From contig JACOSC010000025.1 in assembly GCA_016179055.1 (NCBI GenBank), positions 1-64,000 on the forward strand: a DNA stretch of 64,000 bases, in the 5' to 3' direction. A program made the translations under genes and the position numbers. Positions 182 through 15,316 of the stretch are shown here, piece after piece (the stretch's first letter is position 1; each line of letters starts with the position of its first letter). This stretch comes from Acidobacteriota bacterium (lineage in GTDB: Bacteria; Acidobacteriota; UBA6911; JACOSC01). The notes under the pieces are model-generated. The model did no database searches. It had not been told where the DNA came from and saw only the letters and a list, made by a program, of their open reading frames with translations.

Positions 182-439
182 TGCCCCTGGCTATTATAGC
201 CCGCTCCTTCAGAGCTACGCGAACAAGCTTCAGGCTATGGCGGGGCGCTCGCTCGAAGTGGTGGGGACGAAAGGATCGCGCGTGGCTGTGGCCCATGTCC
301 AAACTCCAGAACCCGTGGGACTGGGGTTTGGCATCCGCGCATTTCTTAATGATCGAACTTCACGATGTTGCTGCCTCCTCTGTTAGGAAAAGTTGAAAAG
401 TGCACTTTTCAACCTTAAATGACATGTTGCTGCCTCCTC

Positions 440-468
440 TTGACATTTTTCCCGTTTCACCATAGAGT
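440..468 (+). promoter_or_regulatory. sigma70-like promoter of the TetR gene
   Basis: A perfect -35 box TTGACA (440-445) is followed after exactly 17 bases by TAGAGT (463-468), four of six matches to the -10 consensus. Transcription would begin near 475, just before the operator-like palindrome and 55 bases before the TetR start codon. Confidence 0.55.
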
Positions 469-479
469 AACTATCGTTC

Positions 480-497
480 TTCGAACGAACGTTCGAA
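480..497. promoter_or_regulatory. TetR operator-like palindrome
   Basis: TTCGAA at 480-485 and again at 492-497 flank an overlapping perfect palindrome CGAACGTTCG (486-495). Its position just after the predicted transcription start, ahead of a TetR gene, suggests autorepression. TetR proteins generally bind such short palindromes next to their own gene; binding here is inferred. Confidence 0.5.
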
Positions 498-529
498 CTA
501 AATCGGGTTTGGCGAGCGCACGGCACAAC

Positions 530-1126
530 ATGACTTCAGCAAAAACCATTTACGCGGGTTGCGATCAGAAATTGGAAATCATTCTCCGTGAAGCGGCTCA
601 CATTTTTGCCCGCAAAGGCTTCCGCGGAGCCACGATTCGCGACATTGCCCGCCAGACCGGAATCAGTTTAGCCGGCCTTTATTACTATTTTCGCAGCAAG
701 GATGAGTTGCTCTTTCTGATCCAGAAGCACTGTTTCGAATGGCTGACCTTGTCGTTGGAACAGCAGTTGGAAGGCGTGGCCGATCCGGTCGCCCGGCTTC
801 GCCTATTGGTCAAGAACCATTTGGAATATTTTCTGACGAACATGCGAGAGATGAAAGTTCTCTCCCACGAAGCGGAGAGTCTCGACGGCGCTTTTCTGGC
901 GGAAATCGAGCAAATCAAGCGGCGCTATTACAAGATATGTTTGAGCGTGGTTCAAGAGCTGATCAATGCCGGCAAGATGAAAGAGCTCAATCCGCGTATA
1001 ACCGTAATGAGTTTGCTCGGCATGATGAATTGGATATATAACTGGTACGATGCCAAGCGCGACGGCAAAGTCCATGATCTGGCTAACCCTATGACGGAGA
1101 TTTTTCTGCGCGGCATTTTGCGTTAG
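530..1126 (+). CDS. TetR/AcrR family transcriptional regulator
   Basis: A 198-residue repressor-type protein. Residues about 14-60 form the TetR DNA-binding domain, with the typical IRDIARQTGISLAGLYYYF segment at 36-54; the rest is the all-helical ligand and dimer domain. I chose the ATG at 530 because upstream in-frame codons translate the promoter and operator. The gene precedes a cluster of acyl-CoA-type catabolic genes by 54 bases. TetR proteins of this kind (for example PaaR, FadR-like) often sense an acyl-CoA or aryl-CoA pathway intermediate, so it probably controls the downstream cluster as well as itself. The ligand cannot be read from the sequence. Confidence 0.9.
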   Translation: MTSAKTIYAGCDQKLEIILREAAHIFARKGFRGATIRDIARQTGISLAGLYYYFRSKDELLFLIQKHCFEWLTLSLEQQLEGVADPVARLRLLVKNHLEYFLTNMREMKVLSHEAESLDGAFLAEIEQIKRRYYKICLSVVQELINAGKMKELNPRITVMSLLGMMNWIYNWYDAKRDGKVHDLANPMTEIFLRGILR

Positions 1127-1180: not shown

Positions 1181-2614
1181 ATGGCCAAGATGTTTATCGG
1201 CGGCGAGTCTGTCGACTCTCTGACCAAGCACGTTTACGAAGTAAGAAATCCGGCCAATGGCGAGTTGGTGGATACGGTCCCCAAAGGCAATGCTGAGGAT
1301 GTTCGCCGCGCCGTCGACGCAGCGGATACGGCATTCAAATCTTGGAGCGAAACCACCGCGGAAGCGCGGGCCAAATGGCTATTTAAGGCCGTCGACTTGA
1401 TCCATGAAAATATTCAAGAGCTTTCCGTGCTGCTGTGCCATGAGCAGGGAAAGCCGGTAAAGGAAGCCGTCACGGAGATAGATCACTTTCTGCACGGGCT
1501 GAGTTTTTATGCGGGCCTGGCCGCGAAGCTACGCGGGTCGTACGTACCGCTGCCGGATAATAAGATGTACGGCATGGTGATCAAGCAACCTTTGGGCGTA
1601 TGCGCGGCCATCGTGCCCTGGAATTTTCCCATTACCTTAATGGGAACGAAAGTAGGTCCGGCCCTGGCCACCGGGAACACGGTCGTGGTTAAGCCGGCCA
1701 GCTCCACGCCACTGACCACCATTCGCATCATCGAGCTGATGGCTAAGGCGGGAATGCCCAATGGAGTCATCAATGTGGTTACCGGTCCCGGCGGCGTTGT
1801 CGGCGAAGCCCTGATCGCGCATGCGAAAGTCCGCCGCGTGGCCTTCACCGGCGAGTCCAAGACCGGCAAGCACGTCATGGCCGTGGCCGGGCAAGATTTC
1901 AAGCGCATCACGTTGGAGTTGGGCGGCAGCGATCCGATGATCGTCTGCGATGACGCCGAGATCGACAAAGCGCTTACCGGCGCCGCCGTCGGACGCTACT
2001 TCAATTGCGGTCAGGCCTGCTTGGCCGTCAAGCGACTCTTCGTGTTCGAGAGTGTCTATGACATGTTCGTATCCAAATTGGTTGACAAAGTCAAAAAACT
2101 GAAAGTCGGGAATGGCATGAGCGCCGATACGCGTATAGGGCCGTTGCACAATGAGGCGCAGCGCGCCGAGATCGAGGAGCAGGTGCAAGACGCGGTTAGC
2201 CGCGGCGCCCGCGTTATCTTCGGCGGGAAACGGCCGGAAGGCCCCGGGTTTGAAAAGGGATTCTTTTACCTGCCCACGCTCCTGGTCGACGTCCCCGATA
2301 ACGCGCGCGTGGCGACCGAGGAAGTTTTCGGGCCGGCGCTGCCGATCTTCAAGGTCAAAGATTTGGATGAAGCGATTGCCAAAGCGAACAGCTCTATCTA
2401 CGGTCTCGGCTCCTCGATTTGGACGAAAGACTTAACGCGTGCCCGCCGTGGGGCCGAACGTCTGCAAGCCGGCAATGTTTGGATTAACTCGCTGCACATC
2501 GGGTACGACGAGATGCCTTTCGGCGGAGTCAAGCAAAGCGGTATCGGGCGTGAGCACGGCCCGGAAGCGCTCGAATATTATTTGGAGACCAAGGGTATCG
2601 TGGTGGCGACCTGA
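1181..2614 (+). CDS. NAD(P)-dependent aldehyde dehydrogenase, first copy
   Basis: A 477-residue aldehyde dehydrogenase that would oxidise an aldehyde (probably a semialdehyde or acyl-CoA semialdehyde) to the acid with NAD(P)+. The general base Glu246 lies in LELGGSDP and the nucleophile Cys280 in NCGQACLAVKRL; the Rossmann loop motif FTGESKTGK is intact. Length is normal for the ALDH superfamily, near the succinate-semialdehyde dehydrogenase branch. The start is set by a strong GGAGGAGG Shine-Dalgarno sequence ending about 9 bases upstream. A close paralogue of the same length follows at 2863. In the box and paa pathways an ALDH oxidises the ring-cleavage semialdehyde; that role here is inferred from the neighbours. 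Confidence 0.93.
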   Translation: MAKMFIGGESVDSLTKHVYEVRNPANGELVDTVPKGNAEDVRRAVDAADTAFKSWSETTAEARAKWLFKAVDLIHENIQELSVLLCHEQGKPVKEAVTEIDHFLHGLSFYAGLAAKLRGSYVPLPDNKMYGMVIKQPLGVCAAIVPWNFPITLMGTKVGPALATGNTVVVKPASSTPLTTIRIIELMAKAGMPNGVINVVTGPGGVVGEALIAHAKVRRVAFTGESKTGKHVMAVAGQDFKRITLELGGSDPMIVCDDAEIDKALTGAAVGRYFNCGQACLAVKRLFVFESVYDMFVSKLVDKVKKLKVGNGMSADTRIGPLHNEAQRAEIEEQVQDAVSRGARVIFGGKRPEGPGFEKGFFYLPTLLVDVPDNARVATEEVFGPALPIFKVKDLDEAIAKANSSIYGLGSSIWTKDLTRARRGAERLQAGNVWINSLHIGYDEMPFGGVKQSGIGREHGPEALEYYLETKGIVVAT

Positions 2615-2862: not shown

Positions 2863-4299
2863 ATGGCAAAAATGATTATTGGGGGAGAAGCGGTCGATTC
2901 GGTGAGCGGTGAGCGCTATGAAGTGCGCAGCCCAGCCACCGGCGAAATTGTCGATACGAGCCCCAATGGGACAGTCGAGGATGCCCGGCGAGCCATTGCT
3001 GCCGCCGATTTGGCGTTTAAAACATGGTCGAAAACCCCGCCCGCTAAGCGAGCCGAGATTTTGGCCCGTGCGGAACATGTGATTAGCGAGCATGAGGAAG
3101 ATCTGGCCTGTACTTTGACGTTGGAGCAAGGCAAGACGTTACGCGAAGCTAAAATGGAAATCCACCGCTTTTGTCACACGATCAAGCATTATGCCGGCCT
3201 CGGGAAAAGCCTGCGCGGCGGCTATGTGCCTATGCTGGATGAGAAGCGTTATGGCATGATCATCAAGAAGCCGCTGGGGGTTTGCGGCGCCATTGTGCCA
3301 TGGAACTTTCCAATATCTCTGATGGGCAACAAGATTGCTCCCGCACTATTGACGGGAAACACGGTGGTGGTTAAGCCCGCCGGCACCACGCCGCTGACGA
3401 CGATAAAAGTGATAGAGCTTTTCCACAAAGCCGGACTGCCTGCCGGTGCGTTGAACGTCGTTATTGGTTCCGGTCGCTCAGTCGGAGAGGAGATTTTGCG
3501 CCACCCCAAGGTACGTAAGATCGGGTTTACCGGCGCGACCAGCACAGGCAAACACGTGATGGCGGTAGCAGCAGCCGAGCTCAAGCATGTCACTTTGGAG
3601 CTCGGCGGCAGCGATCCCATGATTGTATGTGATGATGCCAATCTGGAAGCGGCCGTGAGCGCCGCCTCCGTAGGTCGGTTCTTCAATTGCGGACAAGCCT
3701 GCCTGGCGGTCAAACGCCTTTTCCTCTTCGAAAAAATTTATGATGAATTCCTCAGCCGCCTGTGCGAGAAGGTGAAAAAGCTGAGAGTCGGCAACGGGCT
3801 GGATCCCAAAAGCACTCTGGGCCCGCTGCATTCCAGCGGGCAACGCCAGGAAGTCGAAGAGCAGGTGCAAGACGCCGTCGCCCGCGGGGCCCGTGTGATC
3901 GCCGGTGGGAAACGCCCGGAAGGCAAGGAATATGAGAAAGGCTATTTTTATCTTCCCACGCTGGTAGTGGATGTGCCGGACGAGGCCCGCATGCTGACCG
4001 AAGAATGCTTCGGCCCCGCTTTGCCGATTGTGAAGGTCAAGGATCTGTCGGAAGCGTTGGCCAAAGCGAACAGCTCTATATATGGTCTTGGATCTTCCGT
4101 GTGGACGAGAGACATCAACAAGGCCACTATCGCCGCCGAGCAACTAGAGGCCGGTTATACGTGGGTCAATTCGGCTCAGATTATTTATGACGAGCTGCCG
4201 TTTGGCGGCGTCAAGCAAAGCGGACTTGGCAAAGAGCATGGATCCGAAGTGCTCGATTATTACATGGAAACGAAGTCGGTGGTCATTGCCATCGAGTGA
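2863..4299 (+). CDS. NAD(P)-dependent aldehyde dehydrogenase, second copy
   Basis: A 478-residue paralogue of the enzyme encoded just upstream; the two can be aligned end to end and have the catalytic residues at the same numbers (Glu246, Cys280). Start at 2863 (MAKMIIGGEAVDS) matches the first copy's N-terminus (MAKMFIGGESVDS) and has TAAGGAG about 10 bases upstream; upstream in-frame codons only translate the repeat cluster. The pair looks like a tandem duplication followed by divergence, perhaps to handle two aldehydes. The duplication post-dates recruitment of the -80 region, because the promoter-proximal DNA is not duplicated. Confidence 0.93.
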   Translation: MAKMIIGGEAVDSVSGERYEVRSPATGEIVDTSPNGTVEDARRAIAAADLAFKTWSKTPPAKRAEILARAEHVISEHEEDLACTLTLEQGKTLREAKMEIHRFCHTIKHYAGLGKSLRGGYVPMLDEKRYGMIIKKPLGVCGAIVPWNFPISLMGNKIAPALLTGNTVVVKPAGTTPLTTIKVIELFHKAGLPAGALNVVIGSGRSVGEEILRHPKVRKIGFTGATSTGKHVMAVAAAELKHVTLELGGSDPMIVCDDANLEAAVSAASVGRFFNCGQACLAVKRLFLFEKIYDEFLSRLCEKVKKLRVGNGLDPKSTLGPLHSSGQRQEVEEQVQDAVARGARVIAGGKRPEGKEYEKGYFYLPTLVVDVPDEARMLTEECFGPALPIVKVKDLSEALAKANSSIYGLGSSVWTRDINKATIAAEQLEAGYTWVNSAQIIYDELPFGGVKQSGLGKEHGSEVLDYYMETKSVVIAIE

Positions 4300-4390
4300 G
4301 GAACGCGTAGAAACAGAGACCTATATTCGGCCGGTGCGCGCGCGCCGAACATCGGCCGCGCCCTGGACCCAGAACAACGGAGCCATCATC

Positions 4391-5179
4391 ATGACGGAAA
4401 AAATGATCGAATATCAAGTGGACAACGGCGTCGGCATTATGGCGCTTAACCGGCCGAAGGCCAACGCCTACACTCTGGAAATGCTGAAGGAGCTGGATGA
4501 GGCGATCCTCGCCGCTCGGCTCGATGAAAACGTCCATGTCATCGTGTTACGCGGCAAAGGCGAGAAGTTCTTTTCGGCCGGCGCCGATATTGAAATGTTG
4601 ACGAGCCACTCCACTTCCTACCGTTATTACTTTTCCTTGTATGGCCATGAAACTCTGACCCGCCTGGAGAATACGCCGAAGCTGGTGATTGCAGCGCTCA
4701 ACGGGCACACGGTGGGCGGAGGATTGGAAATCGCGCTGGCGTGCGACATAAGGATCGCCAAACGCGATGGCGGTCGCTTGGGGCTGGCCGAAGTCAATCT
4801 GGGAGTGCTGCCAGGCATGGGCGGCACACAGCGGCTGCCGCGTTGGATCGGCCGCGCCCAGGCCTTGGAAATGGCCGCCACTGGACGGCAGCTTTCTTTT
4901 GAAGAAGCCCACGAGCTGGGTCTCGTCAATCACATTTATGAATCGGAAAATTTCTTTGAACAAGTTTTGGATTATGCCCGACAGTTTGTGCCGCCCAATA
5001 AAGCAAGTTTTGCCGTGGGGCGAATAAAGCGGGCCATTCATGCCGGATTGGATGGGTCCCTGAGCGAAGGGTTGGCCCTCGAGCGCGAGGTCCTGCTGGA
5101 AGCTTTTCTCAGCGAAGATGCCGCGGAAGGGCTCGCTGCCAACCGCACACGGCGGACGCCGCAGTTTAAGGGCCGCTAA
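4391..5179 (+). CDS. enoyl-CoA hydratase (PaaF-like)
   Basis: A 262-residue crotonase-family protein. The oxyanion-hole segment FFSAGADIEML and GGGLEIALACD are present, and both catalytic acids of true hydratases are kept: Glu in GGGLEIALACD and Glu in LAEVNLGVLPGMGGTQR. It should therefore add water to an enoyl-CoA rather than only isomerise. The ATG at 4391 follows CGGAG with 8-base spacing; longer in-frame starts overlap the previous gene out of register with the family. It sits between the ALDH pair and the oxygenase, as a beta-oxidation step after ring opening would. Confidence 0.92.
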   Translation: MTEKMIEYQVDNGVGIMALNRPKANAYTLEMLKELDEAILAARLDENVHVIVLRGKGEKFFSAGADIEMLTSHSTSYRYYFSLYGHETLTRLENTPKLVIAALNGHTVGGGLEIALACDIRIAKRDGGRLGLAEVNLGVLPGMGGTQRLPRWIGRAQALEMAATGRQLSFEEAHELGLVNHIYESENFFEQVLDYARQFVPPNKASFAVGRIKRAIHAGLDGSLSEGLALEREVLLEAFLSEDAAEGLAANRTRRTPQFKGR

Positions 5180-5237
5180 TCGGATATTTTCGGGCGAAGG
5201 TGCCCTTGGCTCGGCCATAGTATTGGAGGATTTGCTC

Positions 5238-6338
5238 ATGACAAGAGTGGCGACATTCGACGATTGGAAAGATATGTTTCGCCAATGGGAGAAGGAGATT
5301 GATCTCGACGTTTCCAAGTTTAAGGATTATGAATTCGAGATTAAATTTGAACCGACGGAGTGCGAGGAGATTGAGTTCGGCGATTTCAAGGGCCGTAAGA
5401 AATGGGAAACCGTCCTGCAGATTCCGGATCAGCGCATTCGTGACGGTCTGCAACACTTGATTGTCTATCAGGGCGATACCGAATTCGGCTCCGTTGAGCA
5501 ACAACGCCGGCTTTTGCGCCATCCTCCTAACGATTACGATTTAGGCAGCCTGGTGCGGGTCATGCGTGAAGAGATGCGTCACGGGTGGCAGATGTGCTAC
5601 TTGCTCGTCAATTATTTCGGGCACTCCGGCAAGATTGAGGCGCAAAAGCTGCTTGAGCGCCGGTCGTTCAAAAAGACGCGGTTGCTCGGCTCCTTTAACC
5701 AGTCCATCGATACCTGGCTGGATTTCTTCTGCTTCACGCAGTTCGTCGACCGTGATGGCAAGTATCAATTGGGCATGCTGCACCATTCCGGTTTCGGACC
5801 CTTGGCCCGCAGCATGGGTCCCATGCGCAAGGAAGAATTCTACCACGTGCTGACCGGCCACACGGGCCTTGCGCGTATTATCAAAGCCGGTCGAGTTCCG
5901 CGTGATCTCTTACAAAGATTTGTCAACAAGTGGTACCCTTCGGCGCTGGACTTGTTCGGGGTCGATAACTCTACCTCGGCCGCTTGGTTCTATGTGTGGG
6001 GCCTGAAGGGGCGCTATGATGAGCATCCGGATCTGCCGCCGGCCGATCGGGAAAATCTTAACGATGAGGCTCGACATCATTACATGCAGGAGATGCGCGC
6101 GCTTTTTGCCGATCTCAACCAACGATTGCCGGCCGACCAGTCGCCCTTGCGGTTGCCGGAGGAAAAGTTTAACCGCAAGATGGGCCGCTATGCTGATATG
6201 GCCTTTGATGTGAACGGCGAGCCGCTGGCCGCCGCCGACTATATGGCCTACCTGGCGAGTGTATTGCCGGGCCCCGAAGACTATCGCCGGCTGGAAGAGA
6301 TCTGTAAAGACAAAGACTGGATCGTGGCCGTTTCCTAG
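5238..6338 (+). CDS. BoxB/PaaA-type diiron oxygenase component
   Basis: A 366-residue ferritin-like protein related to benzoyl-CoA 2,3-epoxidase BoxB and phenylacetyl-CoA epoxidase PaaA. Two ExxH iron-ligand motifs are visible: E112-M-R-H115 (VMREEMRHGWQM) and E200-F-Y-H203 (MRKEEFYHVLTG), together with candidate first ligands such as Glu82 or Glu87 on the earlier helix. The start at 5238 follows TTGGAGGA. It is shorter than BoxB (about 470 residues), and no PaaB, PaaC or BoxA-like gene is nearby. The next two genes encode NADH-oxidising and iron-sulfur proteins that could supply electrons. The substrate is not known; an aryl-CoA or related CoA thioester is the natural guess. Confidence 0.8.
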   Translation: MTRVATFDDWKDMFRQWEKEIDLDVSKFKDYEFEIKFEPTECEEIEFGDFKGRKKWETVLQIPDQRIRDGLQHLIVYQGDTEFGSVEQQRRLLRHPPNDYDLGSLVRVMREEMRHGWQMCYLLVNYFGHSGKIEAQKLLERRSFKKTRLLGSFNQSIDTWLDFFCFTQFVDRDGKYQLGMLHHSGFGPLARSMGPMRKEEFYHVLTGHTGLARIIKAGRVPRDLLQRFVNKWYPSALDLFGVDNSTSAAWFYVWGLKGRYDEHPDLPPADRENLNDEARHHYMQEMRALFADLNQRLPADQSPLRLPEEKFNRKMGRYADMAFDVNGEPLAAADYMAYLASVLPGPEDYRRLEEICKDKDWIVAVS

Positions 6339-6461
6339 GTGAAGAGATTGCCGATCATATTTTTAGAAATAACGTTTTTGCAATGGCCCATGCGAAGTTT
6401 TTTTGGAGAGGCGCGGTTTTGAAGTTCAAACGCGTAATGGTCGTACGGGAGCGATAATTCT

Positions 6462-6794
6462 GTGGCGAAGGTTTCACACATACTAGTTTGCCAAAATGTG
6501 GATTGCCGGGTGCGAGGGTCCGACCAGGTTATGAAGGCACTTTCCCTCCAACTGGCCGAGAAAGGGCGCCGAGATATCACCGTCAAATCCTATATGTGCT
6601 TTGGCGCTTGCCAGGCCGGCCCCAATATGGTTTTTTATCCCGAGCGAACTTGGTATGCCGGCGTACGGCTCAGCGACGTTGACGCCATTGTCGATCACGT
6701 TATGGGTGGCCCGAAAGTAGAAGCCCTCGAGGGCAAAGTCGATCCAGCGCTGCGCGAGCTGATCTACCAGTTATTGGATGCCGGCTTGTTCTGA
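6462..6794 (+). CDS. thioredoxin-like [2Fe-2S] ferredoxin (NuoE C-terminal type)
   Basis: A 110-residue thioredoxin-fold ferredoxin with four cysteines in the family pattern: C10-x4-C15 and C46-x3-C50 (CQNVDC, CFGAC). This corresponds to the 2Fe-2S domain of NuoE/HndA. The GTG start at 6462 is supported by GGGAG about 11 bases upstream and by the immediate VSHILVCQN strand. Function is electron transfer between the NuoF-like flavoprotein encoded next and an acceptor. Because the gene directly follows the diiron oxygenase gene, the acceptor is probably that enzyme. This assignment of partners is inferred. Confidence 0.85.
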   Translation: MAKVSHILVCQNVDCRVRGSDQVMKALSLQLAEKGRRDITVKSYMCFGACQAGPNMVFYPERTWYAGVRLSDVDAIVDHVMGGPKVEALEGKVDPALRELIYQLLDAGLF

Positions 6795-6896
6795 AGCAGG
6801 CCATCCGCGTACGGCTTTGGTGGGTCTTCCAGTCTTACCGCCAAAGCAGCGCAACGACGAACTGGCTGTTGATGGCCGGTCGCGCAATGAATTATG

Positions 6897-7087
6897 GTAA
6901 CTGTTCACGGGGATCGGGGGTCAGGGATCAAGGGCCAAGGGCACAGTGGTACCGATGTCTGTTGGGAATTATCATGATTTAGCGATTGGGTGGTGGGGCG
7001 GATGCTTAACGGATTGCGGGAGTCTTTGGAAAAGAAATCCAAGTATTATCGACCGATCCCCGATCCCTGACCCCCGTGAACAGTAAC
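6897..7087. mobile_element. IS66-like miniature element (MITE) at the NuoF-like start codon
   Basis: A 191-bp non-coding element with terminal inverted repeats GTAACTGTTCACGGGG (left) and, read inward from the right, GTTACTGTTCACGGGG. It is flanked by a perfect 8-bp direct repeat GAATTATG (6889-6896 and 7088-7095). Terminal GTAA and 8-bp target duplication are hallmarks of the IS66 family. No transposase is encoded, so it is non-autonomous. The right-hand target copy contains the ATG of the NuoF-like gene, so insertion replaced that gene's native leader. Confidence 0.8.
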
Positions 7088-7092
7088 GAATT

Positions 7093-8355
7093 ATGCAGAC
7101 CATTTTGTTTCCAGAGGATTTGATCAAAGGCGAAGAGACGTTCGATGCCTATATCAATCGAGAAGGCTACTGCACGTTGCGCGCGTTGGCCGCGCAAGCT
7201 CAGCCGGAGACCTTGATTGAAGAGATTGCGCGGGCCGGTCTGCGCGGACGAGGTGGCGCCGGCTTTCCTACGGCCAAGAAATGGTCTGTGGCGCGCCAGA
7301 CGGAAGTATTCCCGCGCTACCTGGTCGGCAATGGGGGCGAAGATGAGCCCGGCAGCCTTAAGGATCGTCGGCTTATGGAAGCGCGCCCACACTTGATATT
7401 GGAAGGCGCTCTGCTAGCCGCCCTGGCCATTGGCGCGGAAAAAGTCATTTTGTATGTGAATCACATGTTCGACCATGCCGCGACGCGACTGCAGACAGCC
7501 GTAGATGAAGCGCGCGCCGCAGGCTACTTGGGAGCCTCTATCCTCGGAGGCCGCTATTGCATCGAAGTCGAAATCTGCAAGGCGCCGAGCAACTATGTCG
7601 CGGGTGAAGATACCGCGGCGCTGGAAGTCATCGAGGGACGCCCGCCGTTGCCGCGACAAAAACCTCCTTACCCGGCCGTGCAAGGATTGTATGGCAAACC
7701 CACGGTGGTAAACAATGTCGAAACCCTGGCCAATGTTCCGGTGATTGCGCGCATGGGTGCGGAAGCCTATCGTCGCATCGGCGCCGCCGACAGCCCCGGC
7801 ACCATGCTTTTCAGTTTGGGAGCAGAGGTCCGTAGGCCCGGGGTTTATGAGCTGCCTTTCGGCACACCGCTGCGTCATTTAATTTTCGCATGCGGGGGCG
7901 GTTTAAGCAACGGGAGCGCAATTAAAGCCATTCTTCCCGGCGGGCCATCGACCGCTTTCCTGACGCCGGATCATCTGGATACCGCCCTTGATCACGCGTC
8001 ATTAGCCGACGCCGGCTCGGCTATCGGCTGTGGCGTCGTGAGCTTGTTTGATGTTGGCGCCTGCATGGTGGAAGAAACTCTGGCGCTGGCGCAATTCTTT
8101 GCCCGCGAATCTTGCGGCCAATGCCCGGCGTGCCGTATGGAGACGGCGATGCTGGCGACGCTTATCGAGCGCGTGCAAAATGGGGCGCCGCCGGTTATCC
8201 TGGATCAGATTGACAAGGTGCTCGATTTTAATCGGGGCAAAGGGTATTGTGCGCTGGTCAACATGCCGGGTCCTCCGCTACGTAGCGCCGTGCGGTGGTT
8301 CGGCGCGGACTTTGATCACCATCTCAGACACGGGACTTGTCCGATAAGGCCGTGA
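7093..8355 (+). CDS. NuoF-like NADH-oxidising flavoprotein
   Basis: A 420-residue protein of the complex I 51-kDa/HoxF/HndC family, which oxidises NADH through FMN and passes electrons to iron-sulfur centres. Visible features are the glycine-rich GRGGAGFPTAKKW segment for nucleotide or FMN binding, GEDEPGSLKDR (NuoF has DEGEPGTFKDR), the SLBB-like middle region, and the 4Fe-4S ligands C341, C344, C347 and C386. There are no other nuo genes here, so this is not complex I. With the preceding [2Fe-2S] protein it forms a soluble diaphorase pair. Its start codon lies in the target duplication of a MITE, leaving no clear Shine-Dalgarno sequence. Confidence 0.88.
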   Translation: MQTILFPEDLIKGEETFDAYINREGYCTLRALAAQAQPETLIEEIARAGLRGRGGAGFPTAKKWSVARQTEVFPRYLVGNGGEDEPGSLKDRRLMEARPHLILEGALLAALAIGAEKVILYVNHMFDHAATRLQTAVDEARAAGYLGASILGGRYCIEVEICKAPSNYVAGEDTAALEVIEGRPPLPRQKPPYPAVQGLYGKPTVVNNVETLANVPVIARMGAEAYRRIGAADSPGTMLFSLGAEVRRPGVYELPFGTPLRHLIFACGGGLSNGSAIKAILPGGPSTAFLTPDHLDTALDHASLADAGSAIGCGVVSLFDVGACMVEETLALAQFFARESCGQCPACRMETAMLATLIERVQNGAPPVILDQIDKVLDFNRGKGYCALVNMPGPPLRSAVRWFGADFDHHLRHGTCPIRP

Positions 8356-8405
8356 AAGCCCGGAACAAGCTCGTGCGGGTTAGTATCTGACAAGATGAAA
8401 TTGTG

Positions 8406-8470
8406 CTGAAACGGGTCAAATATTTTTTGAAGGTAGCCTTCCACGCTTTATTCATGCGGGTATTTGACAG
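8406..8470 (+). repeat. dispersed repeat, copy 1 (also near 14.98 and 60.55 kb)
   Basis: The segment around TTTATTCATGCGGG recurs inverted at 14978-15006 and, more divergently, at 60545-60645, where the flanking pieces (GAAACGGTCAAA, then a variable part, then TTTATTCATGC) occur in the same order. All copies are intergenic. The stretch 8356-8538 otherwise holds nothing I recognise. Confidence 0.5.
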
Positions 8471-8538
8471 TTTTCCAGCGTCACTAACCTTTTGAATTTT
8501 ACCGGGTTTGTTTACGCTCGTCCAGGTTAGGGCTGGTC

Positions 8539-9325
8539 ATTACCCAAGCTATTGCGCTAAACCGAAGGCTGGATAAACCGGCCGCGTAGCGGCCGCATGA
8601 CTTTAGCCGTGCCTTTCAAGGCACGGTAGGTCTGGCGGCGGAAAGCTCTTTCGTCCCGACGCTGTCGGGACGGTTGAACCGCATCCACCGGGTAGAAATT
8701 ATGGCTAATACGTATACTTCACTCCACTACCACATCGTCTTCAGCACCAAAAATCGTATTGGTTACCTAAAACCGGAGAGCCAACACCGAGTCTGGGCTT
8801 ACCTCGGCGGGGTCGCGCGCGAACACCAGATGACGGCTTTACAGGTAGGTGGTAGCGATGATCATATTCACGCTTTGGTTATGGCGCCAGCCACGCGGGC
8901 TCCTAGTCAGATCGCGCAATACCTCAAAGGCGATTCTTCCAAATGGATTCACCAAGAGTTTCCCGAGTGGCGCGGTTTCGGCTGGCAAGACGGATATAGC
9001 GCCTTTACCGTGAGTCAATCAAACGTTCCCGAGGTTATACGCTACATTCAGAATCAGCGAGAGCATCATCACCAGAAGACCTTTCAGGAAGAGTATGTGG
9101 AATTCCTGAAAAAACACGGGATCTCCTACGACGAGCGTTATGTATGGGGCTGAATTTTCCAAGGCGTCCTAGAACGCCATTATCGCCTGAATCAATCGTC
9201 GCTGACGCGACGGGGGCCAGCGGCGGGCCCATCGGATCCGTGCCCTAAAGGACACGGCTAAAGTCAACGGGCCGCTACGCGGCCGGTTCATACAGCCTTC
9301 GAGTCATTGCCATAGTCTGGGTAAG
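8539..9325. mobile_element. RAYT/REP unit: IS200-like transposase flanked by inverted REP arms
   Basis: About 78-bp imperfect inverted repeats at 8539-8616 and 9246-9325 enclose the transposase gene. Shared blocks include CGAAGGCTG, ACCGGCCGCGTAGCGGCC and GACTTTAGCCGTG, which contain their own short hairpins. Additional hairpins (GTCCCGACGCTGTCGGGAC at about 8653; CGTCGCTGACGCGACG near 9198) lie just inside. This is the standard layout of REP-associated tyrosine transposases. The unit separates the oxygenase cluster from the PaaG-like gene. Confidence 0.75.
8701..9153 (+). CDS. REP-associated tyrosine transposase (Y1_Tnp, IS200-like)
   Basis: A 150-residue single-strand DNA transposase of the IS200/RAYT group. 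The HUH metal-binding motif is seen as DDHIHALV (near residues 56-63), and the catalytic Tyr is probably in the QDGYSAFTVS segment at about residue 101. Start at 8701 (MANTYTSLHYHIVF) matches the family N-terminus. The full length suggests an intact gene. RAYTs process REP hairpins such as the arms flanking this gene rather than carrying out ordinary IS transposition. Confidence 0.88.
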   Translation: MANTYTSLHYHIVFSTKNRIGYLKPESQHRVWAYLGGVAREHQMTALQVGGSDDHIHALVMAPATRAPSQIAQYLKGDSSKWIHQEFPEWRGFGWQDGYSAFTVSQSNVPEVIRYIQNQREHHHQKTFQEEYVEFLKKHGISYDERYVWG

Positions 9326-9452
9326 GACAAGGCGGACGAGTGGGGCAATTACGTGGCCGATCAGCGAACCTGTCTCCGATGGGTTACCGCGATTTATTGA
9401 GAGCCTACTACTTTTACATGTTTGGTTCCGGCTCGTGCCGGTTAGGATGTTT

Positions 9453-10241
9453 ATGACGATTTATAAAACGATACTTTACGAGGTTAGTGATAATGTCGCG
9501 GTCATTACGATGAATCGTCCGGAAAGTCTAAACGCCATCAGTCTGGAGATGCTGGATGACTTGCTGCACGCTTTATTTGAGTGTACTCAGGATGAACGGG
9601 TGCGCGTCATAGTACTTACCGGCCGCGGGCGCGCCTTTAGCTCCGGCGGCGACATTAATATCATGAAGGATTTCCTAGACAAAGATGTCGGGGCCTTCAT
9701 GACGGAATGGATAACCCGTGTCCACCTGCTGGAAATGCAGATTCGTACGGTGCCCAAGCCGGTGGTTGCGGCTATTAATGGCATTGCCAGCGGTCAGGGC
9801 TTCAACCTGGCGTTGGCTTGTGACATTCGCATTGCCGCCGAGAGCGCGCAATTTAACCAATCGTTTGTCAATCTCGGGCTCACTTCCGAGGGAACTTACT
9901 TTCTGCCGCGCATGGTGGGTGTGAGCAAGGCCACCGAATTGTGTTTTACCGGTGACGCCATCGACGCCCGCGAGGCCGAGCGGCTGGGGATCATCAATCG
10001 CGTCGTTCCCGAGGCCGATCTGTACAATGAAGTTCACGCCTTTGCGCAGCGATTGGGGCGAGGACCCACGGCCGCGCTCGCTCGCATCAAATGGCTGATC
10101 AACGCCAGCTATCGCAATCCGCTTGACACACATTTACAGCAGGAGTGCAAATTGATTGCGGAAACCGCCGGCACGCAAGATTTCCGCGAGGGCGTTCTCG
10201 CCTTTTTCGAAAAACGCAACCCCAATTTCACCGGCAGGTAG
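9453..10241 (+). CDS. enoyl-CoA hydratase/isomerase family protein (PaaG-like)
   Basis: A 262-residue crotonase-fold protein. Unlike the hydratase at 4391, both catalytic Glu positions are replaced: GQGFNLALACD has Asn, and the second segment reads NQSFVNLGLTSEGTYFLPR. This pattern is typical of PaaG-type isomerases (1,2-epoxyphenylacetyl-CoA isomerase or delta3-delta2-enoyl-CoA isomerase). Start at 9453 gives the usual MTIYKTILYEV N-terminus; it follows GTTAGGA. Rearrangement of an aryl-CoA epoxide made by the BoxB/PaaA-like enzyme would fit. It is now separated from the cluster by the RAYT unit, so co-transcription is uncertain. Confidence 0.88.
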   Translation: MTIYKTILYEVSDNVAVITMNRPESLNAISLEMLDDLLHALFECTQDERVRVIVLTGRGRAFSSGGDINIMKDFLDKDVGAFMTEWITRVHLLEMQIRTVPKPVVAAINGIASGQGFNLALACDIRIAAESAQFNQSFVNLGLTSEGTYFLPRMVGVSKATELCFTGDAIDAREAERLGIINRVVPEADLYNEVHAFAQRLGRGPTAALARIKWLINASYRNPLDTHLQQECKLIAETAGTQDFREGVLAFFEKRNPNFTGR

Positions 10242-10382
10242 TCGCACTGTTCAGGGGGTCTACGTGTCATACGTCTCTTGCCCGGTCGCTACCGCTTCCC
10301 GTTCCGTATCGGACGATTACTTCACAAATTTGTCAAAGAGTCTTTTCAACAACATCCGTGGTAAAATCTAACCACACGATAG

Positions 10383-10681
10383 GTAACTGTTCAAGGGGGG
10401 TCCGCTGATGAGCCTATCGACAAAAGGTAGCCCTACGGTGCCCGGTCCCCGAAGGGGACGCTGTTAATAGCCGGGGGTGGCGTTTCGCCACCCCCGGACA
10501 GTAACCCCCGCGCAGGCCGACCCTGAAAGGGTCGCAGTCGTCCACCCACACCGGACCCTACGTGCACCCTTTCAGGGTCCGGCCGGGGGTGATAGCATTC
10601 CGTGGGTGGCGCGGGGCGCCACCCACGGCTATTAACAAGGTCCCCTTCGGGGACCGGCCAGCGACCGCCCTGAACAGTTAC
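10383..10681. mobile_element. IS66-like MITE, second copy with nested palindromes
   Basis: A 299-bp element with perfect 11-bp terminal inverted repeats GTAACTGTTCA / TGAACAGTTAC and a perfect 8-bp target duplication CACGATAG (10375-10382 and 10682-10689). The termini match the element at 6897-7087, but the interior is different: a set of nested hairpins, including one with arms of about 11 bases near 10473-10498, and ACCCTGAAAGGGT-type palindromes. A lone ACTGTTCAGGGGG at 10248-10260 may be a further decayed end. It is non-coding. Confidence 0.8.
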
Positions 10682-10896
10682 CACGATAGGTAGTAAGATG
10701 TGGCCGGGAAGCACAGGTCATTATCGTAACGCGAAGGAGCGGTCTCGCTCCCTGGCGTTTCCCGGAGCGGAGTATTGCTTTATGTTTGGCATGGCTAAGC
10801 CAATAAACCATGACAATACCACGATACAAGTCAGCGAGGTCGAGTTGAAATTGGGTAACCAGGGCTCAGCCGCTGATTCTTGGGAGGGACTTCCTC

Positions 10897-12033
10897 ATGG
10901 CAGAAGAATGGGAGAAGGCAATGGAGCGTTGGTTGAAAGCCAACCTCATTGACGCCGCCACCGCTGCACGCATACGCGCTTTTGAGAGTGGCGAAAAGCA
11001 ATCGCAGGGGCTACGGTGGCCGGTAATTCTGGCCCTGGCCTTAGGCGGCTTGATGCTGGGAGCCGGGGTGTTGCTCTTTGTGGCCGCGCATTGGGATAAG
11101 CTTTCACCCACTCAGCGGTTTACTTTAGTGCTGTTTATGGTGTCGGCATTCCACGTAGCAGGTGCGCTGACGGTGGAACGCTTCGAAAATTTGGCTGTCA
11201 CGTTGCACGCCCTGGGCACGGTAGCGCTCGGGGCCGGAATATTTTTATCCGGACAAATTTTCAATTTGCAGGAACACTGGCCCGGCGGGTTGATGCTATG
11301 GGCTTTGGGCGCATGGATTGGATGGGGTATGCGCCGAGATTGGGTGCAAGCTACACTGGTGGCCTTGCTGACGCCCGCCTGGTTGATTGGAGAATGGATC
11401 GTCGTCACGGAGCGTCTGCGAGGCGGGTATCGCATCCTTCTTGTAGGAACGCTGCTCCTTTCGTTCTCCTATCTCACGGCGCGCACCGCGGCAAGAGATA
11501 GCCTGGTGCGACGAGCGCTGATGTGGATCGGTGGTCTGGCTCTGATTCCCAGCACGGTGATGCTGGCGGAGCTGGCGTGGGAGCGTCCTTGGCAAGTATC
11601 AAATCTTCCCTTGCCAATGACGATTCTGGGATGGACGGCCGCCTTAGGCCTCCCCTTGCTGGTTGCCCTATTGGCACGCGGAAGCGCCGCCGGGCTAAAT
11701 CTTCTGGCTGCGTTGTGGGTACTGGTCTTGGGGCTCCTGGGTCAGTGGGCCGCCGAGCGTGAGGGGATCAGGTTGCTGGTTTATCTGTGGTGCGCCCTCG
11801 GCTCGTGCGGATTGGTGGCATGGGGCGTGACGGAGTCTCGCCGCGAGCGTATTAATTTAGGTGTCGCAGGTTTTGCACTCACAGTACTCTTCTTCTATTT
11901 TTCGAGCGTGATGGACAAACTTGGCCGCGCGGTCAGCTTGATCGGTCTGGGCGCGCTGTTCCTGCTGGGAGGCTGGGTTTTGGAAAAATTGCGCCGGCAA
12001 CTGGTAGCTATGGTAAGGGGGAGACAAGTATGA
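10897..12033 (+). CDS. DUF2157 membrane protein
   Basis: A 378-residue protein with a short cytosolic N-terminus (about 45 residues, AEEWEKAMERWLKANLID) followed by about ten hydrophobic segments running to the C-terminus. This is the DUF2157 architecture. Function is unknown in the family. The start is supported by GGAGG nine bases upstream. It overlaps the next gene by ATGA at 12030-12033, and the pairing with a GDYXXLXY-type protein is the usual genomic arrangement, so the two are probably one membrane complex. Confidence 0.85.
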   Translation: MAEEWEKAMERWLKANLIDAATAARIRAFESGEKQSQGLRWPVILALALGGLMLGAGVLLFVAAHWDKLSPTQRFTLVLFMVSAFHVAGALTVERFENLAVTLHALGTVALGAGIFLSGQIFNLQEHWPGGLMLWALGAWIGWGMRRDWVQATLVALLTPAWLIGEWIVVTERLRGGYRILLVGTLLLSFSYLTARTAARDSLVRRALMWIGGLALIPSTVMLAELAWERPWQVSNLPLPMTILGWTAALGLPLLVALLARGSAAGLNLLAALWVLVLGLLGQWAAEREGIRLLVYLWCALGSCGLVAWGVTESRRERINLGVAGFALTVLFFYFSSVMDKLGRAVSLIGLGALFLLGGWVLEKLRRQLVAMVRGRQV

Positions 12034-12536
12034 GACCACTATACAAAGGACTAATATTAGCGCTGATCCACATTCTCCTGGTTTCAAGTCTTGGAGGCAA
12101 ATTGCTCATCGACCGTAGCAGACTGCCGAGAATCTGGATTCCTACGGCGCCGGTGGATCCGGAATTGCCCATACGAGGCCGCTATATTCGCTTGCTAGTC
12201 GAGGCCGATGCTTCTCGCCTGGCGGTAAAAGTGGCTACCTCCGCGAAGACCTGGGTCCATGTGAATTTCCAGGCGGAAAATGGGAAGCTCCTTGCGCTGC
12301 CTGCTACAGCGAGTGACGGTGTAGCGGCTTACTTAACGGGCTCGGGCGCCGCGGCAAGAATTCAAACCGTCGATCCCATGGCATGTTTTATTCCGGAGCA
12401 TGTGCCCGATCCGTCTCGGCGGGCGCCCGATGAGGAGTTATGGGTTGAGGTTACTGTGCCGCACAAAGGCCCACCGCGGCCCATACGTATCGGTGTAAAG
12501 AAGGCCGGCGTTCTAACTCCACTGGAATTAAACTGA
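12030..12536 (+). CDS. GDYXXLXY-type membrane-anchored protein
   Basis: A 168-residue protein with one N-terminal membrane segment (residues about 7-27) and an extracytoplasmic domain. The name-giving motif is degenerate here: DPELPIRGRYIRLLVE, with Arg in place of the acidic residue and Val-Glu at the end. Its position overlapping a DUF2157 gene supports the assignment more than the motif alone. Function is unknown. Confidence 0.7.
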   Translation: MRPLYKGLILALIHILLVSSLGGKLLIDRSRLPRIWIPTAPVDPELPIRGRYIRLLVEADASRLAVKVATSAKTWVHVNFQAENGKLLALPATASDGVAAYLTGSGAAARIQTVDPMACFIPEHVPDPSRRAPDEELWVEVTVPHKGPPRPIRIGVKKAGVLTPLELN

Positions 12537-12794
12537 GCGTACAATTTCTAGGATTTCACAATTTTTTCATTTGACCCGGACGTCGGCTAAAGAAACCCCT
12601 CGTTTACCGCCTGGCCCAGCATTATGGCTGCATGCCTTCACTCGCCCGTGCAGTCTAACGTCGTGCTCTGCCGCGCGCGCTATTCGATCTCCTTCTCGGC
12701 GCGCGTCGCCAGAAGCGAGTAGTTGGGTGGTTTTATACCGGTCGCGTTCACCTGCGCGCGGAGCGCGTCAAGTGCAACGCGTTGTCAGCCGCCA

Positions 12795-13139
12795 TTATTC
12801 TGTTGTATCTTCTATCGTTTCAAGCTGCGAGGCTACTTGAGGTAATTCAACAGTGGCAATTTGCCAGATGATATCAAGGTTAATGCCAAAGTAATGGTGG
12901 ATTAGTCGATCGCGGGCTCCGGCCATGCTCCTCCAGGGGACAGATGGATACTTGGCACGGAGTTCATCCGATAGGTTCTTGGCGGCCTCCCCAAGAATTT
13001 CCAGATTGCGAACGACAGCATCCTGAGTTTTGGGGTCGGTTACAAACGACTCATACGTCATTCCGGCCACATAGGCCTTGATGCGCTGAAGGGCCTCGCC
13101 GATGTCGATAAGAAATTCTTGGTCGGTCCGCTTAGACAT
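12795..13139 (-). CDS. hepT: HepT-type ribonuclease toxin (DUF86)
   Basis: A 114-residue HEPN-superfamily toxin. The catalytic RX4HXY motif is intact as R-DRLI-H-H-Y in GARDRLIHHYFGIN, so RNase activity is plausible. The start at 13139 (MSKRTDQEFLIDIGEAL) follows the family; the longer reading is the tail of the upstream gene. It overlaps the nucleotidyltransferase gene by 8 bases. In characterised MntA/HepT pairs the partner silences the toxin by attaching AMP residues to the Tyr of this motif. The region 12537-12794 downstream of the previous gene holds nothing I recognise. Confidence 0.9.
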   Translation of the reverse strand: MSKRTDQEFLIDIGEALQRIKAYVAGMTYESFVTDPKTQDAVVRNLEILGEAAKNLSDELRAKYPSVPWRSMAGARDRLIHHYFGINLDIIWQIATVELPQVASQLETIEDTTE

Positions 13140-13434
13140 ACACAATGCTTTGAGAAATACTGCGAGCGACCCGTTCGACGCGGATGTTTTGAATCCCGGC
13201 TGGCGTGAGCACATCTACCTTGCGGCCCAGCAAGTTTTCCAGATAGTCAACGAGTTCAATAAAGCGAAATCCAATTGGGCGCTCAAACTCGACGATAAGA
13301 TCAATATCACTGGCATCGGTTGAATGTCCTTTGGCATATGAGCCAAACAAGCCAATCTTACTAACGCCGAACTCTGCGGCAAGATAAGGATGCTTTTCTT
13401 GAAGTAACCTGACAGCTTTCTCTCTGGTCAGCAT
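13132..13434 (-). CDS. mntA: MntA-type minimal nucleotidyltransferase antitoxin
   Basis: A 100-residue minimal nucleotidyltransferase with the signature GSX10DXD: GSYAKGHSTDASDIDLIVEF. This is the AMPylating antitoxin of HepT. It is the first gene of the pair and overlaps HepT by 8 bases, consistent with translational coupling so that antitoxin is made first. Both genes appear intact. Confidence 0.9.
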   Translation of the reverse strand: MLTREKAVRLLQEKHPYLAAEFGVSKIGLFGSYAKGHSTDASDIDLIVEFERPIGFRFIELVDYLENLLGRKVDVLTPAGIQNIRVERVARSISQSIVYV

Positions 13435-13543
13435 GACTACCTCTGCTAAAGTATACCTGATAATGATTGTGATGGCTAATGCCCGCTATATGGCTGCACT
13501 TCCAATGGAGCCACCAATTTGACCAGGGTTTTGGAAGTATCGC

Positions 13544-13744
13544 CTAGCCTCGATTTCCACGTAAGTAATTTACGTAAGCGCCAGGCCCGTTTGGTGGTTT
13601 CGGCGCCAGGCTTACCACCTCTCGTTCGCTTTGCTTCTCCTTTTCTTTTAGATCACGATAAACCGCCTCCAAGTCATAATCAAACTGCGCGGCATATTCC
13701 TCACGGACTTTCCTTGTTTCCTCGACGATAGTGTCTTTCCACAT
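13544..13744 (-). CDS. small antitoxin-like protein downstream of a VapC remnant
   Basis: A 66-residue charged protein (MWKDTIVEETRKVREEYAAQ at its start, then FDYDLEAVYRDLKEKEK). Short proteins beginning MWKDxIVEExRxxREEYAxxF are usually found immediately after PIN-domain genes of the type at 13748, so this is probably the antitoxin-like partner. The start lies 3 bases after the PIN stop codon. The last 20 residues, after VVSLAPK, look unlike the usual short C-terminus and may be a readthrough after loss of the original stop codon. Confidence 0.6.
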   Translation of the reverse strand: MWKDTIVEETRKVREEYAAQFDYDLEAVYRDLKEKEKQSEREVVSLAPKPPNGPGAYVNYLRGNRG

Positions 13745-13747
13745 AGG

Positions 13748-14222
13748 TTAAGCTCCCATTAGTTCTTCGGGTGTACAAATGGCTGGCGGCGCATACCCGC
13801 TGACCAGACCTAGGGCGGCTATGGCCGGCTGCCTCTCTGCATTAGCAATATGTTTGCAATTCCCAGTAAGCAAGTAATCCGTACCGTGGACGGTCGCTAT
13901 AGCAATGTGTAAGGCGTCTACCCCGGCCTTCTCCGGCAACGGTCCCTTGGTTACCATCGCACGCGCCAATTCCAGAGCCGCCGCGTTCAATTCAAGCAGA
14001 GGCATCGGAGCCAGAACCTGCAATCGGGTTTTGTGCCGCCTGTTGATCTCCCACACTGGATTCTTGGATGACGAGTTGTGAGATGAATAAATCGAAATCT
14101 GTACGACGGTTTTGCCGCTAGTCCTGCGTGAGCTGTTGATGAGCCGCGATAATTAGATCTCTGCTAGGTCGCGCCGTTTGGTAGCTTACAATGGTTGTTT
14201 CTATATAAACTTTCGGCTTCAT
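13748..14222 (-). pseudogene. VapC-type PIN-domain toxin, broken by a stop codon and a frameshift
   Basis: Reading from an ATG at 14222 gives MKPKVYIETTIVSYQTARPS and continues as DLIIAAHQQLTQD, then TAG where relatives have Trp (TGG), then RQNRRTDFDLFISQLVIQES to GDQQAAQN. There, in the AAAACCC run near 14030, a one-base shift moves the frame to RLQVLAPMPLLELN and on through the conserved DALHIAIATVHGTDYLLTGN and ICTPEELMGA tail to a stop at 13748. The PIN acids (Asp/Glu near the N-terminus, Asp in GVDALH) are still visible. Two independent lesions make a functional toxin unlikely. Confidence 0.85.
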
Positions 14223-15316
14223 AAAACTAACGTGCAATAGAGGCTCAAACAGAAAGTTTAGCATAAAGGCTGATGCAATACTGTCACTAATTGCTCAGCA
14301 TCTTTCTGTTCAGTAGCTATTCCGTCCTTTGAGTGAGCCCGAGAGCAGTACCGGTGTGCACGTGAGCTTTTTCCTCCCCGGCCGGCTAGGCCGGGCTCCT
14401 TCAGTCCGGCGGCCACAGTGTGAAAATTGTTTCACAGGAATAGGAAACAAATTGCATATAATTCCTCAACCGATGTGGTTACTGTGGCGGTTACCTTGGC
14501 CGTCGGCAATGGAAAAAGCACTGATTTTTTATTTAAAGCCGTAGGAAATTGCGGTTTAGGTCATTTACCGGCTGAGCTCTCTGGAGCTTGGGCACGACGC
14601 TTGCAATATACCAGGCATGAATGCCCGAAAGAAAAATAAAGCAGAGGAAAAAGAGACGTGGCCGGCGCCAATCACCGGCGCCAGCCGCCGAAATTCGAAG
14701 CGAAGATAAAGGAGGCAGGGCATGTTTTGTTATAGAGTCACTCTCCATGGAATTCACTACGCGGCCTCCCCCTCTGCCTGGCTTACCAACGCATGATTTC
14801 CAGTGCGGGCGGCTACCCCCCTCAGGCCGCTCGCACACCCGAAAAATTGCAACGGCGGCCTATAATGCACCACAGAGACACCGAGGCCACCGAGAAGCCA
14901 ACAATATGAAGGCCTTTTCCCTCTGAGAACTCTGTGCCTCTGTGGTGAGAAGAGAGAGGCCGTGTTGAAGGGATTTGTAAACGTCAAATACCCGCATGAA
15001 TAAAGGGCGAACTCCGACCTCAAATCAATATCACAATCATTAGCCCCAGCATCGTCCTCGGAAACCCCGCCTACGCAGCGAGAGAGAGGAAGCGACCTAC
15101 AGGCTTTCAGATCATGTCCCGGGCTACGGATAAAAAAAGTACCTACGGGCTTTCTGCTTGTCGTGGTTTTATATCATCGAATTTGAGTTTAATTTCTTGA
15201 CGCTTGATGAAGTCGTGTAGGCCGGGTATTATGTTAGCGGTGCGGCCGTTGTTCATTGATTCACGGCGACGATAAGCGTGACTGTTGATTAGCGATTTCA
15301 AACATAGGTGATTGTC
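14223..15316. other. 1.1-kb intergenic region without a gene
   Basis: I find no supported coding sequence. It contains a GC-rich hairpin CCCGGCCGGCTAGGCCGGG at about 14377, another at about 14662 (GGCGCC arms), the CACAGAGG-type inverted repeat at 14868-14947, and an inverted copy of the dispersed repeat at 14978-15006. It separates the toxin-antitoxin genes from the dehydrogenase-like gene. Confidence 0.6.
14868..14947. repeat. CACAGAGG-type inverted repeat
   Basis: CACCACAGAGACACCGAGG near 14868 faces TCTGTGCCTCTGTGGTG ending near 14947. This palindromic repeat is widespread across unrelated environmental bacteria. It is non-coding. Confidence 0.65.

Follow-up and report, generated by a model that had tools for sequence, protein, structure and literature searches.

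Short BoxB-like diiron proteins associated with a dedicated NuoE/NuoF-like pair in Acidobacteriota and other bacteria

Diiron oxygenases are largely classed together with their reductases. The reductase of BoxB is BoxA, a flavin/iron-sulfur protein, and that of the PaaABCE enzyme is PaaE. To our knowledge, all reductases known for BoxB/Paa-type enzymes are flavin/ferredoxin proteins of the ferredoxin-NADP reductase (FNR) type. Here, we describe a gene cluster from an Acidobacteriota bacterium (5.3-Mb draft assembly GCA_016179055.1) in which a BoxB-like diiron protein of 366 residues, hereafter BoxB366, is followed by a small [2Fe-2S] protein and a NuoF-like protein. The cluster lies on contig JACOSC010000025.1, of which a stretch of 64,000 nucleotides, the window, was analysed. 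Comparative genomics gives good support for the NuoE/NuoF-like pair as the electron donor of this oxygenase.

BoxB366 is a member of PF05138. Its score with the BoxB model TIGR03225 is 221 bits, less than half the 499.1 cut-off, and that with the PaaA model is 42.8 bits, against a cut-off of 280. Of the label "BoxB/PaaA-like" given in a preliminary description of this DNA, the BoxB side thus fits far better (221 bits) than the PaaA side (43 bits). The sequence of BoxB in PDB 3PER matches BoxB366 at E=1.8e-51. An AlphaFold (AF2) model built on a 39-row alignment of relatives has a predicted local distance difference test (pLDDT) score of 91, and its best PDB matches in Foldseek are all BoxB, with template modelling (TM) scores of 0.88-0.90 of the query. 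BoxB366 shares with the BoxA/BoxB epoxidase (PDB 3PER, 3PM5) its fold and its six iron ligands, and its benzoyl pocket appears much the same. BoxB366 differs from BoxB in its length (366 versus about 470 residues) and in its phylogenetic position. The tree splits the two with full support, and on sequence grounds the short BoxB proteins form a clade of their own.

The roles of iron-ligand and pocket residues in Azoarcus evansii BoxB (PMC5489048) served as reference for the alignment. BoxB ligands E120, E150, H153, D211, E240 and H243 correspond to E82, E112, H115, D171, E200 and H203 of the window protein. The two ExxH motifs noticed earlier are thus located precisely (E112-H115 and E200-H203), together with the further ligands E82 and D171. 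None of the six ligands is replaced in any of the 90 short or 19 canonical BoxB sequences (109/109). In the pocket, Q116, T119, S123 and F193 are invariant across the aligned BoxB366 and canonical BoxB proteins and F203 is nearly so; T210 is replaced by V or I in 89/90 short sequences and F206 by Y in 87/90. The window protein keeps Q116, T119, S123, F193, F203 and F206, and has V at position 210. The start codon of its gene, an ATG at 5238, is conserved across relatives; the mechanical open reading frame (ORF) opens at 5118.

The two proteins encoded downstream resemble NuoE/NuoF of complex I and the HydB/HoxF-type diaphorases in their flavin mononucleotide (FMN) fold, their four-cysteine [4Fe-4S] site and the presence of a separate thioredoxin-like [2Fe-2S] protein. 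In contrast to these systems, the window pair comes without NuoG, a hydrogenase or a formate dehydrogenase and accompanies a diiron oxygenase. The small protein corresponds to the thioredoxin-like half of NuoE only, the N-terminal part of NuoE being absent. Among solved proteins, its sequence is closest to the N-terminal domains of NiFe/Fe-hydrogenase HydB. In the NuoF-like protein, the Gly-rich FMN/NADH site and the C-x2-C-x2-C...C [4Fe-4S] site are present. The cluster cysteines listed in the preliminary description are all found and prove to be conserved. In the small protein, C10, C15, C46 and C50 are kept across the whole clade, and in the NuoF-like protein, C341, C344, C347 and C386 are kept in 19/19 members of its clade. 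With the complex I NuoF model TIGR01959, the latter scores 392.8 bits, below the 558.65 cut-off.

The NuoF-type proteins of 49 other BoxB366 genomes fall into two sets, either 54-61% identical to that of the window or at most 44-45% identical. The higher-identity set is one clade, monophyletic with a Shimodaira-Hasegawa-like approximate likelihood ratio (SH-aLRT) of 100 and distinct from other NuoF-type proteins. We refer to its members as dedicated NuoF. The window genome encodes two additional NuoF-type proteins, 42% and 35% identical to the cluster NuoF, and both are outside this clade. Twenty-seven alignment columns are diagnostic of dedicated NuoF. Among them, close to the nucleotide and the flavin, NADE has become NGGE and GEE has become GED. 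Because of these two changes, a preference for NADH is not to be assumed. Of the path proposed earlier, from NADH through FMN and [2Fe-2S] to the diiron site, comparative genomics supports the pair as donor, but the specificity for NADH cannot be taken for granted.

Relatives of BoxB366 are encoded in at least 271 stretches of GTDB species genomes, by a search that also admits distant ones, and 80 of these loci were kept as a sample; their genes were called with a codon-usage score. The loci come mainly from Acidobacteriota, Gemmatimonadota and 'Deltaproteobacteria'/Binatia, more rarely from Tectomicrobia, Planctomycetota, Chloroflexota, Armatimonadota and Zixibacteria, and many of the relatives derive from groundwater or sediment. 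A [2Fe-2S] gene and/or NuoF stands beside BoxB366 at 17 of the 80 loci. BoxB366, the [2Fe-2S] gene and NuoF are adjacent in Acidobacteriota, Binatia-type and Tectomicrobia genomes. Their flanks otherwise differ, with ptsP and an AmmeMemoRadiSam gene in the Binatia-type genomes versus catabolic genes in Acidobacteriota, and the triple is the constant part. At four Binatia-type loci (L036, L042, L045 and L059), the unit lies downstream of ptsP (PEP-protein phosphotransferase) and the AmmeMemoRadiSam radical SAM gene for no obvious reason.

The Binatia-type units are compact, with about 40-200 bp between BoxB366 and the [2Fe-2S] gene and 7-12 bp between the latter and NuoF. One genome of the same phylum as the window, outside the same-class genomes (G424), has the order aldehyde dehydrogenase-ECH1-BoxB366-[2Fe-2S]-NuoF with 18-bp gaps and ECH2 near, ECH1 and ECH2 being crotonases. 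Other arrangements occur. At three acidobacteriotal loci (L101, L157 and L158), ECH1, the [2Fe-2S] gene and NuoF are together divergent from BoxB366. In the Tectomicrobia genome, a first BoxB366 locus is without the pair and a second BoxB366 gene is grouped with ECH1, the [2Fe-2S] gene and NuoF. In G006, NuoF is on a separate short contig, most likely because of an assembly break. Mapped on the tree of BoxB366 proteins, the presence of NuoE/F requires at least 4 changes, which means that the unit was gained or lost repeatedly.

Dedicated NuoF is found in 5 of 199 genomes of relatives, and BoxB366 is present in all 5. In a wider sample of 396 genomes of the phylum, 6 have dedicated NuoF and every one of them is among the 19 with BoxB366 (hypergeometric p about 5e-9, kinship of the genomes not being corrected for). 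These figures bear on the idea that BoxB366 and a complex-I-type fragment came together by chance. Two mobile elements inside the window cluster do mark a rearranged region, but this co-occurrence and the adjacency of the three genes in three phylum-level groups refute chance juxtaposition, to which we give next to no credence. Exclusive co-occurrence, adjacency in these three groups and the existence of a dedicated NuoF clade are the grounds on which we propose that the pair feeds the oxygenase.

Of the neighbours of BoxB366, the BoxC-like crotonase and an aldehyde dehydrogenase are the best conserved, and partners of the same kinds occur in the BoxA/BoxB system. ECH1, BoxB366 and aldehyde dehydrogenase occur together in Acidobacteriota, Gemmatimonadota, Planctomycetota and Armatimonadota; in a Chloroflexota genome, ECH1 alone is with BoxB366. 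Among the crotonases of the window locus, ECH1 comes nearest to BoxC (84 bits, ECH2 reaching 35), and its family has a median of 86 bits when other crotonases of the same loci have 35-47. It carries the FSAGA.I..L, NET, GGG.E.A.A.D and LGVLPG.GG stretches of BoxC. Whereas BoxC is a two-part crotonase of about 550-556 residues, ECH1 matches its N-terminal half only. Full-length BoxC adjoins canonical BoxB at the acidobacteriotal loci tested and is found at no BoxB366 locus. The cluster differs from the box pathway in having neither full-length BoxC nor BoxA (FNR plus ferredoxin), the place of the latter being taken by the NuoE/F-like pair. By analogy, BoxB366, ECH1 and the aldehyde dehydrogenases would mirror the epoxidase BoxB, the ring-opening hydrolase BoxC and the semialdehyde dehydrogenase BoxD. 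The likeness to PaaABCE is that of a diiron CoA-thioester (CoA, coenzyme A) epoxidase of PF05138 with a PaaG-like crotonase in its cluster: ECH2 scores 222 bits with TIGR02280 PaaG, below the 345 cut-off, and stands beside NuoF also in L151, L156 and L157. BoxB366 is, in contrast, a single diiron subunit, and PaaB, PaaC and PaaE were not seen.

Genes at other loci give indications about the substrate. At the acidobacteriotal locus L075, the alpha subunit of 4-hydroxybenzoyl-CoA reductase reaches 1001.7 bits, above the 994.6 cut-off, and homologues with 65-75% identity occur at about a dozen further BoxB366 loci. The benzoyl-CoA reductase subunits BcrD (338.6 bits, cut-off 312.9) and BcrA (562 bits, just under 578) are encoded beside BoxB366 at L043, likewise acidobacteriotal. 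There, the genes of BcrA, BcrD and a hemerythrin-domain protein immediately precede that of BoxB366 (6606-9953), so that an oxygenase gene is found in an anaerobic aryl-CoA reductase cluster. In the planctomycetotal locus L071, FdhD and an NAD-type formate dehydrogenase pair come right after ECH1-aldehyde dehydrogenase-BoxB366 (5831-10906). Formate is a product of BoxC in the box pathway, and this placement fits formate release by BoxC-type chemistry. Because of these 4-hydroxybenzoyl-CoA reductase, benzoyl-CoA reductase and formate dehydrogenase genes, the probable substrate is benzoyl-CoA or a closely related compound. The earlier suggestion of epoxidation and ring cleavage of a CoA thioester is strengthened by the BoxC-like ECH1 and the aryl-CoA reductase neighbours. 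Another locus, L039, has 2-oxoacid:ferredoxin oxidoreductase-like genes, a crotonase, BoxB366, a second PaaA-like diiron protein (238 residues) and putative cytochrome oxidase genes in succession (3312-14544).

The arrangement at L043 can also be read in another way, in which BoxB366 and NuoE/F would mainly remove oxygen or reverse epoxides and so shield oxygen-sensitive aryl-CoA reductases, instead of acting as a catabolic oxygenase. The groundwater or sediment origin of many relatives is in line with this, as is the epoxide deoxygenation proposed for BoxB (PMC5489048). The conserved crotonase and aldehyde dehydrogenase neighbours suggest, however, that the product is used. Furthermore, BcrD is over its cut-off in only 5/23 genomes tested and, of the five NuoF-bearing same-class genomes, only in G016. 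We regard such a shielding role as improbable.

Profile searches did not find BoxA or PaaE in the whole genome of the window, the best scores being 27 bits against a cut-off of 459 for BoxA and 35 bits against 421 for PaaE. The absence of both from the window, pointed out previously, thus extends to the genome, but it is no special sign of this cluster. Indeed, BoxA is over the cut-off in 0/55 genomes tested, two of which hold canonical BoxB; as a control, the annotated BoxA of L170 scores 683 bits with the same model. Canonical BoxB-BoxC pairs without BoxA nearby are seen at six acidobacteriotal loci (L164-L169), and the whole genomes G045 and G092 have no BoxA either. We therefore rejected the missing BoxA as a mark of the BoxB366 system: since genomes of the phylum with canonical BoxB lack it too, its absence by itself says little. 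The comparison of BoxB neighbourhoods nevertheless shows the opposite of clusters that always include a BoxA/PaaE reductase and lack NuoE/F, as clusters are without BoxA and a subset of them has the pair. Motif scans for a linked donor at the loci without NuoE/F revealed little besides a [2Fe-2S] subunit of 4-hydroxybenzoyl-CoA reductase and the formate dehydrogenase genes of L071. That locus had been considered as NuoF-linked and was rejected and not counted, its genes being FdhD and the formate dehydrogenase pair.

Taken together, we propose a compact aerobic pathway for ring cleavage of CoA thioesters in which BoxB366 is fed by a dedicated two-subunit diaphorase, with a probability of roughly two in three. 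The direction and order of electron transfer and the catalytic steps would be as follows. The NuoF-like protein would accept hydride from NADH or NADPH onto FMN. From there, single electrons would reach the diferric site through the [4Fe-4S] cluster of NuoF, the [2Fe-2S] cluster of the small protein, or both. Once reduced, the diiron site of BoxB366 would activate O2, and the enzyme would epoxidise benzoyl-CoA or a close aryl-CoA. ECH1 may open the epoxide, the aldehyde dehydrogenases may oxidise the semialdehyde formed after this opening, and ECH2 may help to channel the product into beta-oxidation.

Several observations weigh against this proposal. At 63 of the 80 loci there is no dedicated NuoE/F, some of these loci ending at contig breaks, and a majority of this kind means that BoxB366 can use another donor. 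The triple of the Binatia-type genomes adjoins ptsP and no catabolic genes, which makes its pathway role there uncertain. The pocket changes (T210 to V/I, and F206 to Y in most proteins, not that of the window) may allow an aryl-CoA substrate other than benzoyl-CoA, and the best match to a benzoate-CoA ligase in the window genome, at 205 bits, stays below the cut-off of 375. It is conceivable that the pair serves another reaction of the pathway, for instance by using NADH from the aldehyde dehydrogenases to reduce a ferredoxin that acts elsewhere. BoxB366 would then be reduced by a general ferredoxin, as would have to happen in the many relatives without the pair. The loci without the pair fit this explanation, and the canonical acidobacteriotal BoxB proteins show that unlinked donors evidently suffice. 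Against it stand the Binatia-type genomes, where the pair adjoins BoxB366 without any aldehyde dehydrogenase or other catabolic gene, and a dedicated NuoF clade that was never met without BoxB366 in the 199 relatives and the 396 phylum genomes. We consider it unlikely, though less so than the shielding role.

All genes of the window cluster are on one strand, in the order TetR, two aldehyde dehydrogenases, ECH1, BoxB366, [2Fe-2S] protein, NuoF-like protein, IS200-type transposase and ECH2 (Table 1).

Table 1. Positions of the cluster features in the window.
Feature	Position	Strand	Remarks
TetR-family regulator	419..1126	+	PF00440 and PF17932; found at many BoxB366 loci
ALDH1, aldehyde dehydrogenase, candidate BoxD-like semialdehyde dehydrogenase	1181..2614	+	PF00171; kept near BoxB366
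ALDH2, paralogue of ALDH1	2863..4299	+	PF00171; DNA blocks 72-74% identical to ALDH1
ECH1, short BoxC-like crotonase (262 aa), candidate epoxide/ring-opening hydrolase	4391..5179	+	PF00378
BoxB366, short BoxB-like diiron protein (366 aa), predicted aryl-CoA (benzoyl-CoA-like) 2,3-epoxidase	5238..6338	+	
Thioredoxin-like [2Fe-2S] protein, NuoE C-terminal-half type (110 aa), GTG start	6462..6794	+	PF01257 (8.9e-9)
Small inserted element with 33-nt terminal inverted repeats	6897..7087	.	Between the 2Fe-2S and NuoF genes
NuoF-like NAD(P)H:FMN:[4Fe-4S] oxidoreductase (420 aa)	7093..8355	+	PF01512, PF10531, PF10589
ECH2, PaaG-like crotonase (isomerase/hydratase)	9453..10241	+	Best NCBIfam model TIGR02280 PaaG

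The spacer between the [2Fe-2S] and NuoF genes is 298 bp long in the window versus only 7-84 bp in most relatives. It contains a 191-bp element, the arms of which are 85% complementary. This looks like a non-autonomous transposable element; no other copy of its arm was found within the window with up to 3 mismatches allowed. Between NuoF and ECH2 (8533-9331) lies an IS200/Y1-type transposase gene (8674-9153) bordered by 94-nt inverted arms that are 80% complementary. Because the two mobile elements interrupt the cluster, its joint expression is uncertain; the reading frames are all intact. Farther away (12795-13434), two small minus-strand ORFs resemble a HepT/MntA (HEPN-nucleotidyltransferase) pair, as judged by eye.

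In the open-access literature, we found no description of BoxB with NuoF or of a diiron oxygenase with NuoE/NuoF, though an earlier description elsewhere is possible, and nothing relevant on BoxB/BoxA in Acidobacteria or on BoxB with aryl-CoA reductases. On balance, we favour the view that a diiron aryl-CoA epoxidase recruited its dedicated reductase from the NADH-input module of complex I. CoA-thioester ring epoxidation would then have a third type of reductase in addition to BoxA and PaaE, and BoxB366, the [2Fe-2S] protein and NuoF would form a three-protein system spread across several phyla. The proposed system consists of three soluble proteins and is hence directly testable. If true, a complex-I-type diaphorase would be a new way of driving oxygen activation. 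It would explain how Acidobacteriota, Binatia and other such groups can use a BoxB relative in the absence of BoxA. It would also reveal that a pathway for (hydroxy)benzoyl-CoA built on short BoxB is widespread among soil and groundwater bacteria that are poorly cultured.

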